In this document: piece by piece, positions 1 through 9,098 of the stretch | How positions within the stretch are numbered: the first letter of the stretch is position 1 | Layout: each line of letters opens with the position of its first letter | NCBI GenBank assembly: GCA_003557965.1 | Contig: PWND01000115.1 | Location: forward strand, 1 to 40,545 | Source: Bacteroidales bacterium | Lineage (GTDB): Bacteria; Bacteroidota; Bacteroidia; Bacteroidales; UBA7960 | DNA: 40,545 nt | Direction of reading: 5' to 3' | The notes under the pieces: model-generated | What the model saw: only the letters and a program-made list of their open reading frames with translations | Told to the model about the DNA's origin: nothing | Databases searched by the model: none | Position numbers and translations under genes: made by a program

Positions 1-555
1 CAGGCCATTGACGACAGGGCTGTTATTCCTGTTTCTGTAAACCTACAATCTATACTTCGCCTTAATGTTGTATCCGGCGGTAGTATTGAGTTTAACTTTA
101 ACACCCTTGATGATTACGAAAATGGGATTAACTCTGGTGGTACAAACGCAGGATATCAAACCAAGTTTAATGTTGCTTCATCTGTTGACTGGAACGTCTT
201 TATGTATGCTGAAGATGCTACATTACAAGGAACTGATGAAATAGGCGGTGCAAATACTATGACTATAGACAACATTGGTTATCACCTGGATTATGATGGT
301 GATGGTCTTGAGGATGATTATGATGGCAACTTTGATGAAGGCAACCCAACAGCATTAACAGCTGATGAAAACGAATTGTTAGTGGGTTATGATGAAGACC
401 CTATTGCAGGCGACATTAACAGAAATGCTTTTGTTATAAACTGGAGGTGTGGAACACGTGAAGGGAACATGCTGGATGAAACAATTCTGGAGCAAGGCCT
501 GGCAGCAGATCGCTATGCAACTAATGTGTTTTTATTGCTTCAACCTGCTGAGTAA
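1..555 (+). CDS. Secreted surface protein, 3' part (5' end outside window)
   Basis: The reading frame is open from base 1 and ends at TAA 553-555, giving at least 184 residues; the first in-frame ATG (202) is internal, because protein-like sequence with the family motif lies before it. The visible part has an SGG motif, an F-x-x-N and Y-x-x-G stretch, a T-K-F strand, a W-N-V-x-x-x-A-x-D-x-x-L-x-G stretch, an Asp/Gly-rich middle (DYDGDG) and a hydrophobic last strand (NVFLLL). The same order of motifs occurs in the next gene, so the two look like members of one secreted beta-sandwich family. No catalytic motif is visible. The position upstream of an outer-membrane beta-barrel-like gene suggests an exported structural subunit; that role is inference. 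The signal peptide, if any, is outside the window. Confidence 0.75.
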   Translation, partial: QAIDDRAVIPVSVNLQSILRLNVVSGGSIEFNFNTLDDYENGINSGGTNAGYQTKFNVASSVDWNVFMYAEDATLQGTDEIGGANTMTIDNIGYHLDYDGDGLEDDYDGNFDEGNPTALTADENELLVGYDEDPIAGDINRNAFVINWRCGTREGNMLDETILEQGLAADRYATNVFLLLQPAE

Positions 556-594
556 GAACAACACGAAAATTCAATAATTTGGAAAAGGCTTTAC

Positions 595-630
595 TTCCCG
601 GATGTTACCATCCGGGAATATTTTATTTAT
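595..630 (+). terminator. Strong hairpin between the first two genes of the surface operon
   Basis: A perfect 10-bp stem (TTCCCGGATG, 595-604, with CATCCGGGAA, 609-618) has a 4-nt loop (TTAC) and is followed by a T-rich stretch (TATTTTATTT). The T-run is interrupted, so it may terminate only part of the transcripts or protect the 3' end of the upstream mRNA. I see no clear TAnnTTTG box between it and the next ATG at 662, so downstream genes probably depend on read-through. Confidence 0.6.
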
Positions 631-661
631 CTTCTTTATTCGTTTAAAAGAACGCAATTAG

Positions 662-1228
662 ATGCCTCAAATTAAAAAGAAGTTAATAATACCAATATGC
701 TTATTGTTTTGCATATTAACAGAAGTGCATGCCCAAAGAACAAGAGCCCCTTTCACTCAAAATATTAACAGAGACAGTAATAAAGAAGAGGAAAGTGTTA
801 ATATCAGGTTAGAAAGTGGAGGAAATGTTCCTTTTCATATTAATTCTTTTAGAAAATATGTTGAAGGTGATGAGTTACATGCCTGGACAAGGTTTGCTTT
901 GTTGATTGAGAATCTTGACCCTGCAGATACCTGGAGATTAGAAGTTTTGGCAAGTGACAGTGAGTTAGCAGGAGACTATGGAAGAGAGCTTGATTTACAT
1001 TATATTTCAATTTCAGCAAACCATTTTAACGTTGACTCAGAAGATTTGGATTACTTTCCAGTAAATGAATTGTCAGACATCCCGCAAACTTTAGTGACGG
1101 GTTCAGGAGATGGGTTATTTGTGATAACAATAAACTATAGTATAGGAAAGGATCCTGGCAACAGGCTACTTGGTGAATATCCGGATTATTATTTTGTAAA
1201 TTTATATTTTGACCTTAAACAAGACTAA
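662..1228 (+). CDS. Secreted protein, same family as the upstream gene
   Basis: This 188-residue protein starts with a clear signal peptide (KKK, then a hydrophobic run, cleavage likely after VHAQ near residue 25). The mature part repeats the motif order of the upstream gene: SGG, F-x-x-N, Y-x-x-G, T-R-F, W-R-L-E-V-x-A-x-D-x-x-L-x-G, then a C-terminal beta-rich stretch ending YYFVNLYFDL. It has no cysteine after the signal peptide and no lipobox, so it should be periplasmic or exported. The next gene starts 21 bases after its stop, which indicates co-transcription. It could be a minor subunit or adaptor of a surface fibre, or a periplasmic partner of the barrel protein. I do not recognise a named family. 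Confidence 0.7.
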   Translation: MPQIKKKLIIPICLLFCILTEVHAQRTRAPFTQNINRDSNKEEESVNIRLESGGNVPFHINSFRKYVEGDELHAWTRFALLIENLDPADTWRLEVLASDSELAGDYGRELDLHYISISANHFNVDSEDLDYFPVNELSDIPQTLVTGSGDGLFVITINYSIGKDPGNRLLGEYPDYYFVNLYFDLKQD

Positions 1229-1249
1229 ACGAAACTCAGTTTATTGCAC

Positions 1250-4200
1250 ATGAAGCAATTACATACATATAGCATACTGCTGATTTTTTTGCTTACATGT
1301 TTAACAGAATCATATTCTCAATTCAATAATAACAACTTTAATCGCTCTAATTCTTATATTACTGCGGAATTCAAAAATGAAAACATAATAATAAAGCCTG
1401 AAACAACTTTTTTTAATGTGTTGTTTATTGAAAATAAGGGCGAACAAAGAGAAGAAGTTTTTATTGATATAAATGTTCCTGTTGGATGGTCTGTAATTGC
1501 ATTAGAAGACAGGTCATACCATATTAACCCCGGAGATACTCTTTTGCTGCCTATCAGGGCAGCTCCTGCAAGAGGTGTTGAAGGTAACATAGGCTATTCT
1601 TTGATTGCCGCTGTTAATAATCGCGATGGTGATACATACACTAATGCTTATTGTTTTGTTCAAATTGAAAGGCAATCCGACTTGCAGTTCAGGGCAATCA
1701 CCAGGATGGGCTACTTTGACCAGCAAACAGGAGAAAGCGAGCTTTCATTCAGGTTAATTAACCGTGGCAATATTAGTGAATTGGTTTATTTAAGTTTTCA
1801 ATCAACTGAAAACGTTGCCATTGTAAATGAAAGAGACAACATCTACAGCATGGATGTAATGCTAAGTGCTCGCAGCGATACTACAATTACACTACCTGTT
1901 AAAGTTGTTGAAGACCATAATTTACACAACGGGAGCTTATTCAGGATTGACCTGAAAGGCCATACAATTGACAGGGAATTCGGCACATCTTTTTGGTTTA
2001 ATCATACAGTAAGCCAGTATAAATATAATATCCCTGAATCTGAAAAAATTCTTATAGCTGAAATAGCTGCACAAAATTTATTTAGTGATCAAAATACAAT
2101 ATTTTCAGGGGGAGTAAGAGGGGTCTTATTGCTTCCGGAAAGCCGTGATTTCAAGTATCGATTTTACAGGCATGGTGGTGCCCCCTCAAGTGATTTTCTC
2201 AGATACAGCAGGGCAAGAGTCTCTTACAACTCTCCTTTTATGGGCATTACGGTTGGTGACATCTCCGCATACAACCTGAAGTATGGTGGAGGTAAAGGAA
2301 CAGAAATTGTTTACAGAATGCCCGGTGCATTCCAGGTGTCGGCAATGGCAAACCGCAACACCTTCAGGCCAATTACAAACTATGGGATTAGTATTAACGA
2401 ACGTTTATCTTCTGTAAGGTTGGGTACAGAGCTTGCTTATACAGAAAACGAAATATTGAATAATTATGCTTATCTCGGCACCCTTAGAGGATCTGCAAGG
2501 CTCGGCAGAAACCATTATATAAAAACAACTGCTGGAATTAGCAGTGTTCATTATATGCATAATGAAAGTACTAATTTAGGTTATGGTTTGTTGTTTGATT
2601 ACAGTGGTAGAATTGGAAATGCAAGAATTAGAATCAGAGAGCATTTGGGAACGCCGGAATATTATGGCAGATACTCCGGAAGGCATAACCTCACAACAAC
2701 AGTTTTATATCCTTTTGAAAGTGGCTTGCAGCTATATTTTAGTGGATTTGACCAAAGATACAGGCCTTTGGTTGAAACTCATGAAGGCATTACATCTGAC
2801 AGGTTCCTGGATAACAGATCGGCAAATTTAATACTTAGAAAATTTCTTGACCAGGGATTTCTCATATATGGCGGCCCTGTTTACCAGGGAAAATCTACTA
2901 ACAGTTTCTTCCTGTTTGATGGTGAAAACCCTTTTACCACACATTCTGCCAAATTCACACTTGGCACAAGGCTAAATGAAGGAGGCCTGAGCTTTAACCC
3001 TGCTGTAACTATGGGATATACTTTTATTACTGACCACTCAATCCCCGAACCCGGAACTCTCAGGCATGATATTAGAAACAGTGATGGAAAATTCTTCAAT
3101 AGCCTTTTTACTTTGAATTTAAGAAGTTCGTGGTGGGGAGCATTTATTAACTATTATTACGGGCCATATACTGTTAACCAGGAAATCTCTCAATTCTACT
3201 ACGACATTTCTGCTCACTCTGTTAGGCTTATGCCGTATCTTGAGAGATTTATTTATAAAGATATTGTTTTCCTTTCTTCTAAGCTGAGTTTTACTTATGA
3301 TTTTGCTTTCAAAACAAGCAGAATTAACCTTATGAACCAACTTGATGTTTATTTTGAACACGACTTCAAATTTTCTTTATTGAATACCTATGGTTATCAA
3401 CTCACTACTGATTTAGTTACCGACCAGAAATACACATACTCTCACCTCTATTTTGAAGCAAGGCTTACAAAAGAATTCAACTTCAACCAACCTCGCATTA
3501 GATATTACGACCTGAAAATCAGTCTTTTTAAAGATTTAAATGGAAATCTTATCAGGGACCCTAACGAGCCCGGTGTCAGAGATATTCTTGTAAGTATAAA
3601 AAGTATTGATCCTCATAAATATAAAGATTATGATGTTGATTATCCTCCTCCTGATAAATTAGTTTCCATGAGCTTATTATCAGGCATGGACGGAACTGTT
3701 ACATACGAAAACTTGCCAATGGGCATTTACAAAATAGAGCTGACAAATGTTGGAAGAGACCAGGATAAGTACTTCCCTGATGAAAGTTCTTTTATTGTGC
3801 ATGTTACCCGGGATAAAACAGTTTACGTTCCATACCTTGAAAGAAACAAAATCTTTGGAAGGGTAATTATGAATCGTAGCAGGTTATCAACCCTGGGCAG
3901 GATCGAGCTTGGAAACATAAAAGTGACTGCTGTTGATAGCAAAGGTAGAGAAACCGCCACTCTTACTGATTCAAGGGGGCATTTTGAAATGTATGTACCA
4001 AGTATTGATTATTACGTTGTTTCGATAAGAGATATTTTTAGTGATCACTTTAACCTTAGACAAAACCATTTTAGGGCAAATCTAAACGGTTTTAAACAAT
4101 TTGAAGTTAACTTTGTATTCGATGAAATCCGAAGGCATGTTGAATTTACTCCTACTCCTTCAGATATTGAGGCTGAAATCAGAAGAGTAGGACGAACTAA

Positions 4201-4804
4201 CCTGTCGGGGATAGTTAGAGATGCCTCAACCTTAAGGCCATTAAGAGCTCAAATTGAAGTAGTTGACAATAAAACCGGCAACAGCATTACTCAAACAATT
4301 TCCGACAGGGCAAATGGAAGATATAGTGCCAGCTTTGTAACAGGAGAAGATTACATGCTCATTGCCAATGTAAGTGGATACTGGATGCACTCCGAAAGGT
4401 TAAGCCTTGACCAGTTTCTGACTATTCAAGATATTGAAGTTGATATTTTGATGGAAAGCATTGCTGTAGGATCAAGGTTCCAGCTAAATAACCTGCACTT
4501 TGCTCCCGAAAGCGCTGAAATACCAACGGAGGCATTCCCGGAGCTTGACAGGCTGATTAAGCAGCTTAAAGACAATCCTAATGTGAGAATCAGAATAGAA
4601 GGACACTCTGATGCAGTTGAAACTCTGGAAGACAGAACATTGTCTCTTAGCAGGGCTGACGCTGTGATGAGGTATATGGTACAAAACGGTTTCGGAAATA
4701 TTGAGTACACAGGACGGGAAGATTCTCAGCCAGTGGCTCCAAATGATACAGAAGAAAACAGAAGAAGAAACAGGAGAGTTGAAATTATTATTGTTGACAG
4801 GTAA
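1250..4804 (+). CDS. Large outer-membrane protein: Ig-like domains, barrel-like region, SdrD-B-like domain, OmpA C-terminus
   Basis: I chose the ATG at 1250 (1184 residues); an upstream in-frame TTG at 1244 is also possible. Order of parts: signal peptide (1-24, ending YSQ); two Ig-like segments (about 25-250) resembling NEW3-type domains; a long region of alternating aromatic and polar strands (about 270-750) that looks like an outer-membrane beta-barrel; an SdrD-B-like domain starting with F-K-D-L-N-G-N-x-I-R-D-P-N-E-P-G (about 757); two carboxypeptidase-regulatory-like beta domains (about 870-1050); and an OmpA-type peptidoglycan-binding domain (about 1075 to the end) with EGHSD, SLSRAD and NRRVEI. 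It would sit in the outer membrane and grip peptidoglycan. With two secreted subunit-like genes upstream, an usher or anchor role is plausible but unproven; a T9SS-independent adhesin scaffold is an alternative. Confidence 0.75.
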   Translation: MKQLHTYSILLIFLLTCLTESYSQFNNNNFNRSNSYITAEFKNENIIIKPETTFFNVLFIENKGEQREEVFIDINVPVGWSVIALEDRSYHINPGDTLLLPIRAAPARGVEGNIGYSLIAAVNNRDGDTYTNAYCFVQIERQSDLQFRAITRMGYFDQQTGESELSFRLINRGNISELVYLSFQSTENVAIVNERDNIYSMDVMLSARSDTTITLPVKVVEDHNLHNGSLFRIDLKGHTIDREFGTSFWFNHTVSQYKYNIPESEKILIAEIAAQNLFSDQNTIFSGGVRGVLLLPESRDFKYRFYRHGGAPSSDFLRYSRARVSYNSPFMGITVGDISAYNLKYGGGKGTEIVYRMPGAFQVSAMANRNTFRPITNYGISINERLSSVRLGTELAYTENEILNNYAYLGTLRGSARLGRNHYIKTTAGISSVHYMHNESTNLGYGLLFDYSGRIGNARIRIREHLGTPEYYGRYSGRHNLTTTVLYPFESGLQLYFSGFDQRYRPLVETHEGITSDRFLDNRSANLILRKFLDQGFLIYGGPVYQGKSTNSFFLFDGENPFTTHSAKFTLGTRLNEGGLSFNPAVTMGYTFITDHSIPEPGTLRHDIRNSDGKFFNSLFTLNLRSSWWGAFINYYYGPYTVNQEISQFYYDISAHSVRLMPYLERFIYKDIVFLSSKLSFTYDFAFKTSRINLMNQLDVYFEHDFKFSLLNTYGYQLTTDLVTDQKYTYSHLYFEARLTKEFNFNQPRIRYYDLKISLFKDLNGNLIRDPNEPGVRDILVSIKSIDPHKYKDYDVDYPPPDKLVSMSLLSGMDGTVTYENLPMGIYKIELTNVGRDQDKYFPDESSFIVHVTRDKTVYVPYLERNKIFGRVIMNRSRLSTLGRIELGNIKVTAVDSKGRETATLTDSRGHFEMYVPSIDYYVVSIRDIFSDHFNLRQNHFRANLNGFKQFEVNFVFDEIRRHVEFTPTPSDIEAEIRRVGRTNLSGIVRDASTLRPLRAQIEVVDNKTGNSITQTISDRANGRYSASFVTGEDYMLIANVSGYWMHSERLSLDQFLTIQDIEVDILMESIAVGSRFQLNNLHFAPESAEIPTEAFPELDRLIKQLKDNPNVRIRIEGHSDAVETLEDRTLSLSRADAVMRYMVQNGFGNIEYTGREDSQPVAPNDTEENRRRNRRVEIIIVDR

Positions 4805-4821
4805 CTTAATATATACTAATT

Positions 4822-5199
4822 ATGAAATTACCGGCTTTTTTAATACTCGTATTGCTTTTCGTTATTTCTGCTTGCGATAAAGAAGAAGAAGAATTTTACT
4901 TTGAGCTTGATGATCTTTTAGAAACACATTGGGGAATACCACATGTTATTGAGCCGGGACAAGAAGATATTGATTTAGCAGCACCCACGATATTTTACCC
5001 TGATGGCTATGTTAATATTGGCCCTGACAGAACGGATTTCTGGAGGATTAAAGACTCCAGAAGTATCTTTTTGGATGAAGCCGGAGAAGATTGGTTTTTT
5101 ATAAACCTAAGTCCTGACACTATGTATGTTGAAAAAACAAAATATCCTCAAGGTATATTTTTAGGAAAATACATTTATCATCCGATGGAATATAACTAA
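4822..5199 (+). CDS. Small lipoprotein, last gene of the surface operon
   Basis: This 125-residue protein has a lipoprotein signal (hydrophobic run ending ISAC, Cys at residue 18) followed by DKEEEE; acidic residues right after the lipid-bearing Cys are common in surface-exposed lipoproteins of this phylum. The rest is short and beta-rich with aromatic residues (WGIPHV, FWRIKD, DWFFINL), reminiscent of small lipocalin-like lipoproteins, though I cannot assign a family. It starts 17 bases after the large outer-membrane gene and is almost certainly co-transcribed. It could be an accessory lipoprotein of that complex. Confidence 0.7.
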   Translation: MKLPAFLILVLLFVISACDKEEEEFYFELDDLLETHWGIPHVIEPGQEDIDLAAPTIFYPDGYVNIGPDRTDFWRIKDSRSIFLDEAGEDWFFINLSPDTMYVEKTKYPQGIFLGKYIYHPMEYN

Positions 5200-5299: not shown

Positions 5300-5372
<73 letters not shown>

Positions 5373-5376
5373 CAGC

Positions 5377-5402
5377 AACCTCTGAGAAAGAGGTTTTTTT
5401 TT
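5377..5402 (+). terminator. Intrinsic terminator between the two tRNA genes
   Basis: Stem AACCTCT (5377-5383) pairs with AGAGGTT (5389-5395) around loop GAGAA and runs into nine consecutive T's. It sits immediately after tRNA-Gly and only 12 bases before tRNA-Leu, so it may end most transcripts after tRNA-Gly or act as a processing site. Confidence 0.75.
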
Positions 5403-5414
5403 ACCACTCAAGTT

Positions 5415-5499
5415 GCCCGGGTGGTGGAATTGGTAGACACGCAGGACTTAAAATCCTGTGGCCATTGCGGCCGTGCCGGTTCGATCCCGGCCCCGGGTA
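5415..5499 (+). tRNA. tRNA-Leu (UAA)
   Basis: This is an 85-nt class II tRNA with a long variable arm. The acceptor GCCCGGG (5415-5421) pairs with CCCGGGT (5492-5498, one G-U), with discriminator A5499. Stem CAGGA/TCCTG encloses loop CTTAAAA, so the anticodon is TAA (5449-5451). The T-arm has GGTTCGATCCC. CCA is not encoded. I see no separate promoter in the short gap after the terminator. Confidence 0.95.
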
Positions 5500-5529
5500 C
5501 TTTTCTTTCAAGCATTACAAGCCACCAAT

Positions 5530-7036: not shown

Positions 7037-7073
7037 TATAGTCATCTTGTCATTTATGGCGAGATTGACTATA
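7037..7073 (-). repeat. Imperfect inverted repeat at the 3' end of the nuclease gene
   Basis: TATAGTCA (7037-7044) and TGACTATA (7066-7073) form a perfect 8-bp outer stem, with further partial pairing inside (CTTGTC against GGCGAG). It overlaps the stop codon of the minus-strand nuclease gene. There is no long U-tract, so it may be a weak terminator, an mRNA-stabilising hairpin or the remnant of a mobile-element end. Confidence 0.4.
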
Positions 7074-8118
7074 TCATATTTCCACCGGATTTTTTAATTT
7101 TGTTTTCCAGTTCATTTTCAATTTCTTCAATAGATGGTAATTTTGTTTTAAAACTTTCAGGGATAGCGTCAGTTAAGCGGTATTCACTAATTCCCATTGG
7201 TTTATTTATATCTCTGAGTGCGTATTCAACTTCAATTTTATCTTTACTCTTGCATAAAAGAATTCCTATTGATGGATTGTCGTCAGTTTTCCTAAGTTGG
7301 CTATCAATTGCTGACAAATAGAAGTTTAACTTTCCAGCGTATTCAGGTTTGAATTTTCCTGATTTTAATTCAATAATTACATAACAGCGTAGATCAACAT
7401 GATAGAATAGCATGTCTATGAAGTAGTCGTTTTCGCTAACTTCTATCTTAAACTGTCTGCCAAGAAAAGCAAATCCTTTACCGAGTTCAAGTAAAAATTT
7501 TGTGATATGTTTTGTTATCTCGTCTTCAATTGCTTTTTCAAGAGCACCATCTTCTAATCTCAGAAAATCAAAGTTATAAGGATCTTTTAAAGTTTGTTCA
7601 GCTAATTTTGATTGATGTGCTGGAAGCGTGTGTTTAAAATTGTGTGCAGCCTTGCCAATTTTTCCGAAAAGGTTTTTCTTAATTTGCAGTTCAAGAGTGT
7701 CTCTATCCCATCCATTTTCTACTGTTTTTAAAATATAAAATTCGGCTTCATCAAGGTCCTTTGTTTTGGATATTATCACTCGATTGTGACTCCATGGAAT
7801 TTGTGCCACAGTCTGTGGCACAAATTGATATTTCTGAGAATAGAGCTTATACCATTGACTCATGGCGTATAAATTCCTGCGAGAAAAGCCTTTGATTTGA
7901 GGAAATTCATGCTTTAGCTCAATAGCAGCCTTTTCGATAAAACTACTCCCCCAATTTGCTTTTTCTTGCTTTTGAGCAATTGATTTCCCTATATCCCAAT
8001 ACAATTCGATTAACTGTGAATTGATTGAAAAGGCAACCCTTCTCTGTGCTTCATGAATTTTGGATTTTATCTCAATTATCCAATTCCCAAATTCCGTTAT
8101 GTTTACTTCTTGGCTCAT
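7069..8118 (-). CDS. YhcG-type (DUF1016) PDDEXK nuclease
   Basis: This 349-residue protein matches YhcG in length and layout. The N-terminal half is the DUF1016 helical domain (QLIELYWDIGKSI, FSRRNLYAMSQWY, ILKTVENGWDRDTLE). The C-terminal half is a PDDEXK nuclease core: the YFIDMLFYH strand supplies the Asp, I-I-E-L-K supplies the E-x-K pair, followed by GKLNFYLSAID. Family members are linked to restriction-modification and defence loci or recombination; their in vivo substrates are poorly known. No restriction or toxin partner is adjacent. It sits between DUF6599 and DUF362 genes that usually neighbour each other, which suggests insertion. The track start is kept (ATG, MSQEVN). Confidence 0.85.
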   Translation of the reverse strand: MSQEVNITEFGNWIIEIKSKIHEAQRRVAFSINSQLIELYWDIGKSIAQKQEKANWGSSFIEKAAIELKHEFPQIKGFSRRNLYAMSQWYKLYSQKYQFVPQTVAQIPWSHNRVIISKTKDLDEAEFYILKTVENGWDRDTLELQIKKNLFGKIGKAAHNFKHTLPAHQSKLAEQTLKDPYNFDFLRLEDGALEKAIEDEITKHITKFLLELGKGFAFLGRQFKIEVSENDYFIDMLFYHVDLRCYVIIELKSGKFKPEYAGKLNFYLSAIDSQLRKTDDNPSIGILLCKSKDKIEVEYALRDINKPMGISEYRLTDAIPESFKTKLPSIEEIENELENKIKKSGGNMI

Positions 8119-8193: not shown

Positions 8194-9098
8194 CTACTTG
8201 GGTATTTCAACAATATTAATTCTATCTAAGTCTTTATAGCCTAAACCTGCTTCATAACCTTTTTTAATCGTAAGAACATCTTCCGCGAAAAACCCAACCT
8301 GTATTGCACAATATTTATCAACAGCCACAGGGTCTGTGCCCGCTACAACTTTCATCGGGCTTACTATTTCTCCCGGTCCTCCCGGGCCATTTGTTGTTAT
8401 TACATGCGACACATCTGAAATAATTAAATCGGGTTTTCTTAGCAGGTTTAAATCTACAATGCTTTGTGCGAGAAAGTGAGGGTCGTTTCTTTCAGGGCCC
8501 TCCAAATGAAACTTCACATTTGAAGCGCGTGTATTTATGCCATCATGTTTTTCATAGCGTTTGTTAAAACAGTTAAGCTATGATGCTTTGCAATTGGAAT
8601 ATTAATAAAAACATCAACATTAAAAAACTCTTTCACTACTTCAAGCTCCCAGCTTATTGCTTTAGCTCCTTTTACATCTTTTACTACTTGAAAGTTCTCA
8701 TCATCAAATTCTGATGGGAAATGATTTGCCTCTATTGTCCTGGTTTTATTTATCACCTCTTTATATTCATCATAAAGCCCGCTTCTTTGCCAATATTCAG
8801 GAATTATATGCTGTAGAAAAACAACATCTGTGGCTCCGGCATCAAAAATCATTAATAATGCTGCTATTACAACATCCGGGTCAACATAGGCCCCTTTTTC
8901 CCTGAAACCTGAATTAACAAGTATGCCAACAGTATTTCCCGGTTGCACAAACCTTTCCATGCCTCCAAGAGTTTCAACTGCAATTTTTGTGTTTTCAAAA
9001 ACACTGTCACCTTTTACAGCAACAATATCAGGCGCTCGCCCTTTTGTCGCAATGCTTGAAATCAATGCAAGCAAAATAACTACAAATAACTTATTCAA
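8194..9098 (-). pseudogene. DUF362 protein gene with a one-base frameshift
   Basis: Two consecutive minus-strand frames (9098-8535 and 8517-8194) together form one DUF362 protein with a signal peptide (NKLFVVILLALISSIATKG). The first frame ends LTNAMKNMMA-stop. Adding one G to ATGATGGCATAA near 8539-8541 restores MMGINTRASNVKFHLEG and joins the frames. This may be a real mutation or a base-call error in a G run. DUF362 proteins often resemble iron-sulphur or ferredoxin-linked enzymes of unknown role. The start is TTG at 9098-9096, overlapping the TGA stop of the upstream gene, which points to translational coupling; I see no ATG alternative nearby. Confidence 0.75.

Follow-up and report, generated by a model that had tools for sequence, protein, structure and literature searches.

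Position 1 of the window, the whole stretch of 40,545 nt analysed here, coincides with the edge of contig C5 in a draft Bacteroidota genome, so that the gene lying there, A, appears without its start codon and signal peptide. It is followed by an RNA hairpin, by a second small secreted protein gene, B, that is complete within the window, by a gene for a large outer-membrane protein, C, and by a small predicted lipoprotein gene, D. The features of this putative operon, with the evidence on which each assignment rests, are:

1–555, + strand: gene A (A2), TLP-1-family filament subunit, mature part from Q1; predicted major subunit (sequence, model, profiles)
1–54, + strand: N-terminal arm of A, QAIDDRAVIPVSVNLQSI, with alternating hydrophobic positions, nearly invariant in A and absent from B (model, alignments)
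595–618, + strand: intergenic RNA hairpin between A and B, a 10-bp perfect stem with a 4-nt loop, then a T-rich tail (folding)
662–1228, + strand: gene B, secreted, homologous to A and lacking the A arm; predicted terminal (tip or initiating) subunit (sequence, profiles, tree)
1250–4804, + strand: gene C, usher-like outer-membrane protein with an OmpA anchor, 1,184 amino acids (aa) from the ATG at 1250 (domains, model)
4822–5199, + strand: gene D, small predicted lipoprotein with a signal ending in ISAC (sequence)

Directly downstream of the operon are tRNA-Gly(GCC) and tRNA-Leu(TAA) genes (5300–5500, + strand). Further along, on the − strand, lie a DUF1016/YhcG PDDEXK nuclease-like gene (7069–8118) and a single DUF362 gene that reads as two open frames of 107 and 187 aa (8194–9098), likely owing to a frameshift or stop.

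A conserved gene order in Bacteroidota

A search of 147 genomes, comprising the source genome and its relatives, found A in 33 and B in 25. A scan of GTDB genomes yielded 80 loci, some of them on the same contigs and nearly all from Bacteroidota, including Bacteroidales, Flavobacteriales, Salinivirgaceae, Paludibacter, Crocinitomix and others. The order A, B, C is conserved: in a locus set with most duplicates removed, B comes next after A in 80 of 84 loci and C next after B in 75 of 76, counts that come from draft, partly related metagenome-assembled genomes and do not represent independent events. In close relatives of the window D follows, and it is kept downstream of C in 26 loci, duplicates included.

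Several further observations concern copy number. The source genome has a second A copy, with 77% protein identity, that ends contig C230 (L095 1–507); the first 33 nt of contig C5 are identical in both copies, and their first 72 codons differ at 24 synonymous and 8 non-synonymous codons. The two copies may be either tandem genes or strain alleles. Several A-like genes stand in tandem at two GTDB loci (L160 and L084). Among the GTDB loci, a contig stops within 300 bp of gene A in 9 cases, where about 3.2 would be expected (both sides together); this excess may point to strain variation or to repeats at A. In some of the same genomes there is also a second, paralogous operon type (L085–L092), in which A, hereafter A5, is longer and C is often shorter, at about 975–990 aa in most; in several of these operons a chaperone-like gene lies directly after C.

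A and B are products of an ancient duplication

The first-pass annotation had proposed, from an alignment by eye, that A and B share one motif framework. Every motif is present in both sequences, at the place given for it: SGG; F-x-x-N (FNFN in A, FHIN in B); Y-x-x-G (YENG, YVEG); T-[KR]-F (TKF, TRF); the W-x-[VL]-x3-A-x-D-x2-L-x-G stretch (WNVFMYAEDATLQG in A, WRLEVLASDSELAG in B); and a hydrophobic last strand (YATNVFLLLQ, YYFVNLYFDLK). The D of the A-x-D motif is not family-wide.

Pairwise BLASTP of A against B gives 20% identity with a non-significant E of 0.39, yet it aligns most of the same motifs; the by-eye claim therefore required more sequences. When the family alignments were compared with hhalign, A and B matched over 164 columns (probability 99.4, E = 1.8e-21), with a score of 138 against a maximum of 18.3 in 100 column-shuffled versions of the B alignment, so that the profile–profile check put forward with the motifs came out clearly positive. 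As a control, another secreted family from the same locus aligned only in or around the signal peptide; because such a signal-peptide match reached E = 0.0004 with a probability of 36, the E-value of a single comparison was not taken as sufficient, and shuffles were used. HMM cross-matches between A and B also occur in nearly every one of the 80 loci, typically at 1e-4 to 1e-12 for the A profile against B proteins and 1e-6 to 1e-18 for the B profile against A proteins. Convergence or chance motifs, a reading for which the BLASTP value of this one pair could be cited, are thus very improbable in view of the profile comparison, the shuffles and the cross-matches, and we conclude from the profiles that A and B are homologous through duplication.

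A phylogeny built from 38 A and 38 B proteins resolves the two into pure clades (SH-aLRT 100), with about 2.1 changes per site on the branch between them, and the split is common to Bacteroidales and Flavobacteriales genomes. Separate A and B clades across Bacteroidota indicate that the duplication took place before the operon spread within the phylum. The tandem duplication that had been suggested is thus upheld as far as homology is concerned, whereas a recent, local origin in the source genome is ruled out by the tree.

A belongs to the TLP-1 filament family

Gene A matches no Pfam or NCBIfam family. Searched against PDB sequences, the A profile matches only chains of 9IKJ and 9IKK, weakly (E = 0.07 and 0.03); these entries were deposited as TLP-1 and TLP-2 and are titled TLP-1a and TLP-1b. 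The TLP-1 filaments reportedly come from water of the Tsinghua Lotus Pond and were solved by cryo-EM in the CryoSeek study. The link is carried by the paralogous operon type, which is the closest to TLP-1a and TLP-1b: the A5 profile matches both at full length (E = 6.5e-45 and 5e-44, the former spanning 213 of 239 positions), and A is joined to the A5 subfamily by hhalign (E = 1.4e-14, probability 98.3) and also by phmmer (E down to 9e-9).

The predicted structure leads to the same family. An AlphaFold2 model of A (pLDDT 88.4, pTM 0.83) was compared by Foldseek with 350,542 chains, and the sole two matches below 0.001 were TLP-1b (E = 4.2e-6) and TLP-1a (E = 1.4e-5), with TM-scores of 0.56–0.59 by query; lower in the list, without significance, stand the chaperone–usher pilins PapG (pilin domain), FimG, EcpA and CsuE, as well as TasA. 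The N-terminal arm of A lines up with the start of the solved TLP-1 chain. From the sequence bridge and the modelled fold, we assign A to the TLP-1 filament subunit family. Whereas A5 matches the solved chains at full length, the A of the window is shorter by about 50 residues and, at 16% identity, has diverged. The gene context described here comprises B, C, the chaperone-like gene and the hairpin.

Family membership bears on whether A and B are filament subunits at all or instead employ this beta-sandwich as proteins of the cell surface or matrix. In the source organism the system is known from genes alone, and A itself, unlike the distant A5 subfamily, matches TLP-1 sequences weakly (E = 0.03), both of which leave room for a surface or matrix role; we nevertheless regard such a role as quite unlikely, given the fold matches of A, the bridge through the intermediate A5 subfamily and the conserved donor-strand-like arm.

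An N-terminal arm distinguishes A from B

The distance from the signal-peptide cleavage site to the GG is 25 residues in 62 of 80 A proteins and 11 or 12 residues in 44 of 74 B proteins. In A this stretch carries the consensus Q-A-V-x-D-R-x-V-I-P-V-A-V-x-L-N, with a near-invariant hydrophobic residue at every second position, and is unstructured in the model of the monomer. The arm motif is found in 81 of 84 A proteins and 0 of 75 B proteins. The B of the window has a longer N-terminal stretch, with 28 residues before the GG, that is polar and lacks the arm motif. Otherwise B comprises one small domain and shows no obvious additional binding domain; it has no Pfam or NCBIfam match, and its profile finds no match in the PDB.

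Chaperone–usher pili are built by donor-strand assembly at an usher, 24-stranded in FimD, in which the incoming subunit fills the groove of the one before it with its own N-terminal strand (PMC12122975, PMC9452303). By analogy, the arm of A resembles a donor strand, and A subunits may undergo strand exchange. A subunit such as B, with the sandwich and without the strand, would fit only at the end that needs to donate nothing; if each arm slots into the subunit in front of it, the chain most likely starts with B, which would place B at the tip.

The same filament could instead carry B as a base, anchor, terminator (like FimI or PapH) or accessory subunit. B consists of one small domain without an evident binding module, and the terminators of known pili are also pilin homologues (PMC12122975). 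A base subunit, however, must donate a strand to the subunit ahead, for which no B has the arm, and an anchor is already provided by the OmpA domain of C. We therefore think it unlikely that B sits elsewhere than at the tip and treat B as probably the arm-less terminal subunit, on the strength of its sequence and the pilus analogy.

A conserved hairpin follows gene A

For each locus, the 80 nt after the stop codon were folded and compared with dinucleotide-preserving shuffles, counting z below −2. Such values follow A in 70 of 79 loci (median −4.8), as against 6 of 71 for B and 6 of 62 for C; the comparison of A with B carries the caveat that the stretch folded after B is mostly coding, since B–C gaps are short (median 14 nt, versus 85 nt for A–B). 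The position of the hairpin is kept, mostly 10–50 nt after the A stop, and its stem sequence varies between loci.

As a terminator or 3′ stabilizer, a structure after A would be expected to raise A far above B and C. A functional intercistronic stem-loop affects fimbrial expression in the CS6 fimbrial operon (PMC8923064). The hairpin thus provides an independent line that supports a major and a minor subunit. The pairing of a major with a minor subunit, also raised in the first-pass annotation, gains indirect support from three sides: the donor-strand-like arm in A alone, the conserved hairpin right after its gene, and the link of A in fold and sequence to a solved filament subunit.

Gene C encodes an usher-like outer-membrane protein

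C is composed of the following predicted domains:

1358–2023, + strand: two N-terminal Ig-like (NEW3/FixG_C-like) domains, about residues 37–258 (domains of relatives, model)
2051–3535, + strand: transmembrane beta-barrel of about 26 strands, about residues 268–762 (model)
3527–4405, + strand: C-terminal beta-sandwich domains, SdrD_B-like at residues 760–832 and CarboxypepD_reg at 985–1052 (domains, model)
4499–4774, + strand: OmpA peptidoglycan-binding domain, residues 1084–1175 (domain match)

The domain matches of C itself are OmpA (2.8e-14), CarboxypepD_reg and an SdrD_B-like region, and its relatives show NEW3/FixG_C Ig-like domains. The structural model (pLDDT 84.6, pTM 0.55) has two Ig domains, a barrel of about 26 strands, beta-sandwiches and the OmpA domain. 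Among outer-membrane proteins in the PDB, FimD ushers match this model first (E = 1.2e-10), followed by LptD (1.2e-7), PapC (2.2e-7) and BtuB (5e-7); the other hits of higher or equal rank are unrelated strings of Ig domains. The match to FimD is loose, with a TM-score of at most 0.36 and an r.m.s.d. of about 14–24 Å, and barrels resemble one another; no FimD-like plug was identified in the model. The C of the window does not match the Usher family (PF00577), nor, with matches accepted up to E = 1, does that family figure among the 25 Pfam families found most often in 30 C relatives. Given these low TM-scores and the lack of an Usher-family sequence match, we call C usher-like and not a member of the family; its role as an usher is suggested by the model. 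The N-terminal Ig domains were also considered as a fused copy of the chaperone, a relationship that is unsupported (hhalign probability at most 24.5).

Were C instead a structural OmpA-type porin, A and B could still be filament subunits, exported and polymerized by type IX secretion or a type V fimbrial route. The sequence signal of C lies mainly in OmpA and carboxypeptidase-regulatory domains, which are common to the type IX protein PorE, and its similarity to FimD is structural only. Against this, the type IX C-terminal sorting domain is not among the Pfam matches of the A or B families, and the signal peptides of the A family end in a type I site preceding Q, with no lipobox cysteine. C is moreover the constant downstream partner of B, and in distant relatives C proteins of about 975–1,000 aa, one of them without any NCBIfam match, still stand beside A and B. 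With these observations weighed, a porin served by another export route appears unlikely, and we retain the usher-like reading of C.

A candidate chaperone and candidate regulators

A gene for a secreted two-Ig protein of about 269 aa is present in 52 of the 66 loci whose flanks are long enough to show it; in most cases it is oriented divergently from A or comes immediately after C. It has no Pfam or NCBIfam name above the cut-off; the matches are to Ig-type families, with PapD_N found below the Pfam cut-off in 4 of 18 members and FaeE at E = 0.25. Its sequence suggests a chaperone role. In the source genome this gene lies on contig C230, together with a MORN-repeat gene, a TPR–SpoIIE phosphatase gene and the second A copy at the contig edge. 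There it is split by one premature TAA (L095 2847–3647) and is intact in relatives; the TAA may be either a sequencing error or a sign of a decayed gene.

The upstream gene of 657–664 aa was considered as a filament part and ruled out, as it lies close to A but encodes a TPR–SpoIIE phosphatase and is therefore a likely regulator. A gene for a SiaC-family regulatory phosphoprotein occurs near the cluster in 19 loci, duplicates included (for example, L061 13446–13907). Its presence near the clusters of some relatives suggests control by a phosphatase and partner switching.

A proposed assembly pathway

On balance, we favour the view that A, B and C (1–4804), with the chaperone-like and regulator genes found close by in relatives and at the end of another contig in the source genome, form a chaperone–usher-like filament system in which A is the major subunit and B the tip. 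A would enter the periplasm with its beta-sandwich incomplete and its N-terminal arm free, and the two-Ig chaperone-like protein would hold A and B there. C would be the platform in the outer membrane, taking up subunits through its periplasmic Ig and beta-sandwich domains, secreting them through its barrel and holding on to peptidoglycan by its OmpA domain. As each new A arrives, its arm would fill the groove of the subunit before it, so that a TLP-1-type filament results, and B, with an acceptor domain and no arm, would sit at one end only, as the first subunit and hence the tip. The hairpin after gene A would ensure that much more A than B and C is made.

Comparison with known filament systems

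The operon looks like a previously unannotated chaperone–usher-type machine for surface filaments. The parallels with type 1, P and archaic Csu pili would be a two-Ig chaperone, a barrel platform with an N-terminal domain and C-terminal beta-sandwiches, a major pilin with an N-terminal donor strand and an arm-less end subunit, and ushers are the top outer-membrane structural matches of C. The differences are as follows: no match of C to the Usher family was found and the match of the chaperone to PapD is below the cut-off; the barrel of C has about 26 strands, not 24, and C carries an OmpA anchor; the system of the window lacks a two-domain adhesin; and nearly all of the loci found are from Bacteroidota.

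Type V fimbriae (FimA, Mfa1) of Bacteroidia are surface filaments of the same phylum, for which donor-strand assembly is thought likely. To our knowledge, their subunits are lipoproteins and they have no usher, whereas A and B have ordinary signal peptides; the fimbrillin (FimA/Mfa1) Pfam families have no match in the A or B families. TasA fibres of Bacillus are also donor-strand beta-sandwich filaments, and TasA is present in the fold list of A, but at an E of only 0.09, and TasA has no outer-membrane platform.

Implications

TLP-1 filaments were solved directly from pond water, so that their producers and their mode of assembly are natural questions. The locus links the TLP-1 family with a specific operon that is widespread in Bacteroidota and puts forward candidate genes for the tip, the chaperone and the platform, each of which can be tested individually. 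Whether the operon is the assembly machine of the TLP-1 family, a separately evolved or extremely diverged chaperone–usher-like pathway of Bacteroidota with an usher-like barrel, its own peptidoglycan anchor and subunit dosage set through a hairpin, we judge to be evenly poised. If true, it would extend chaperone–usher-type assembly in a phylum known above all for its type V fimbriae and its type IX secretion.
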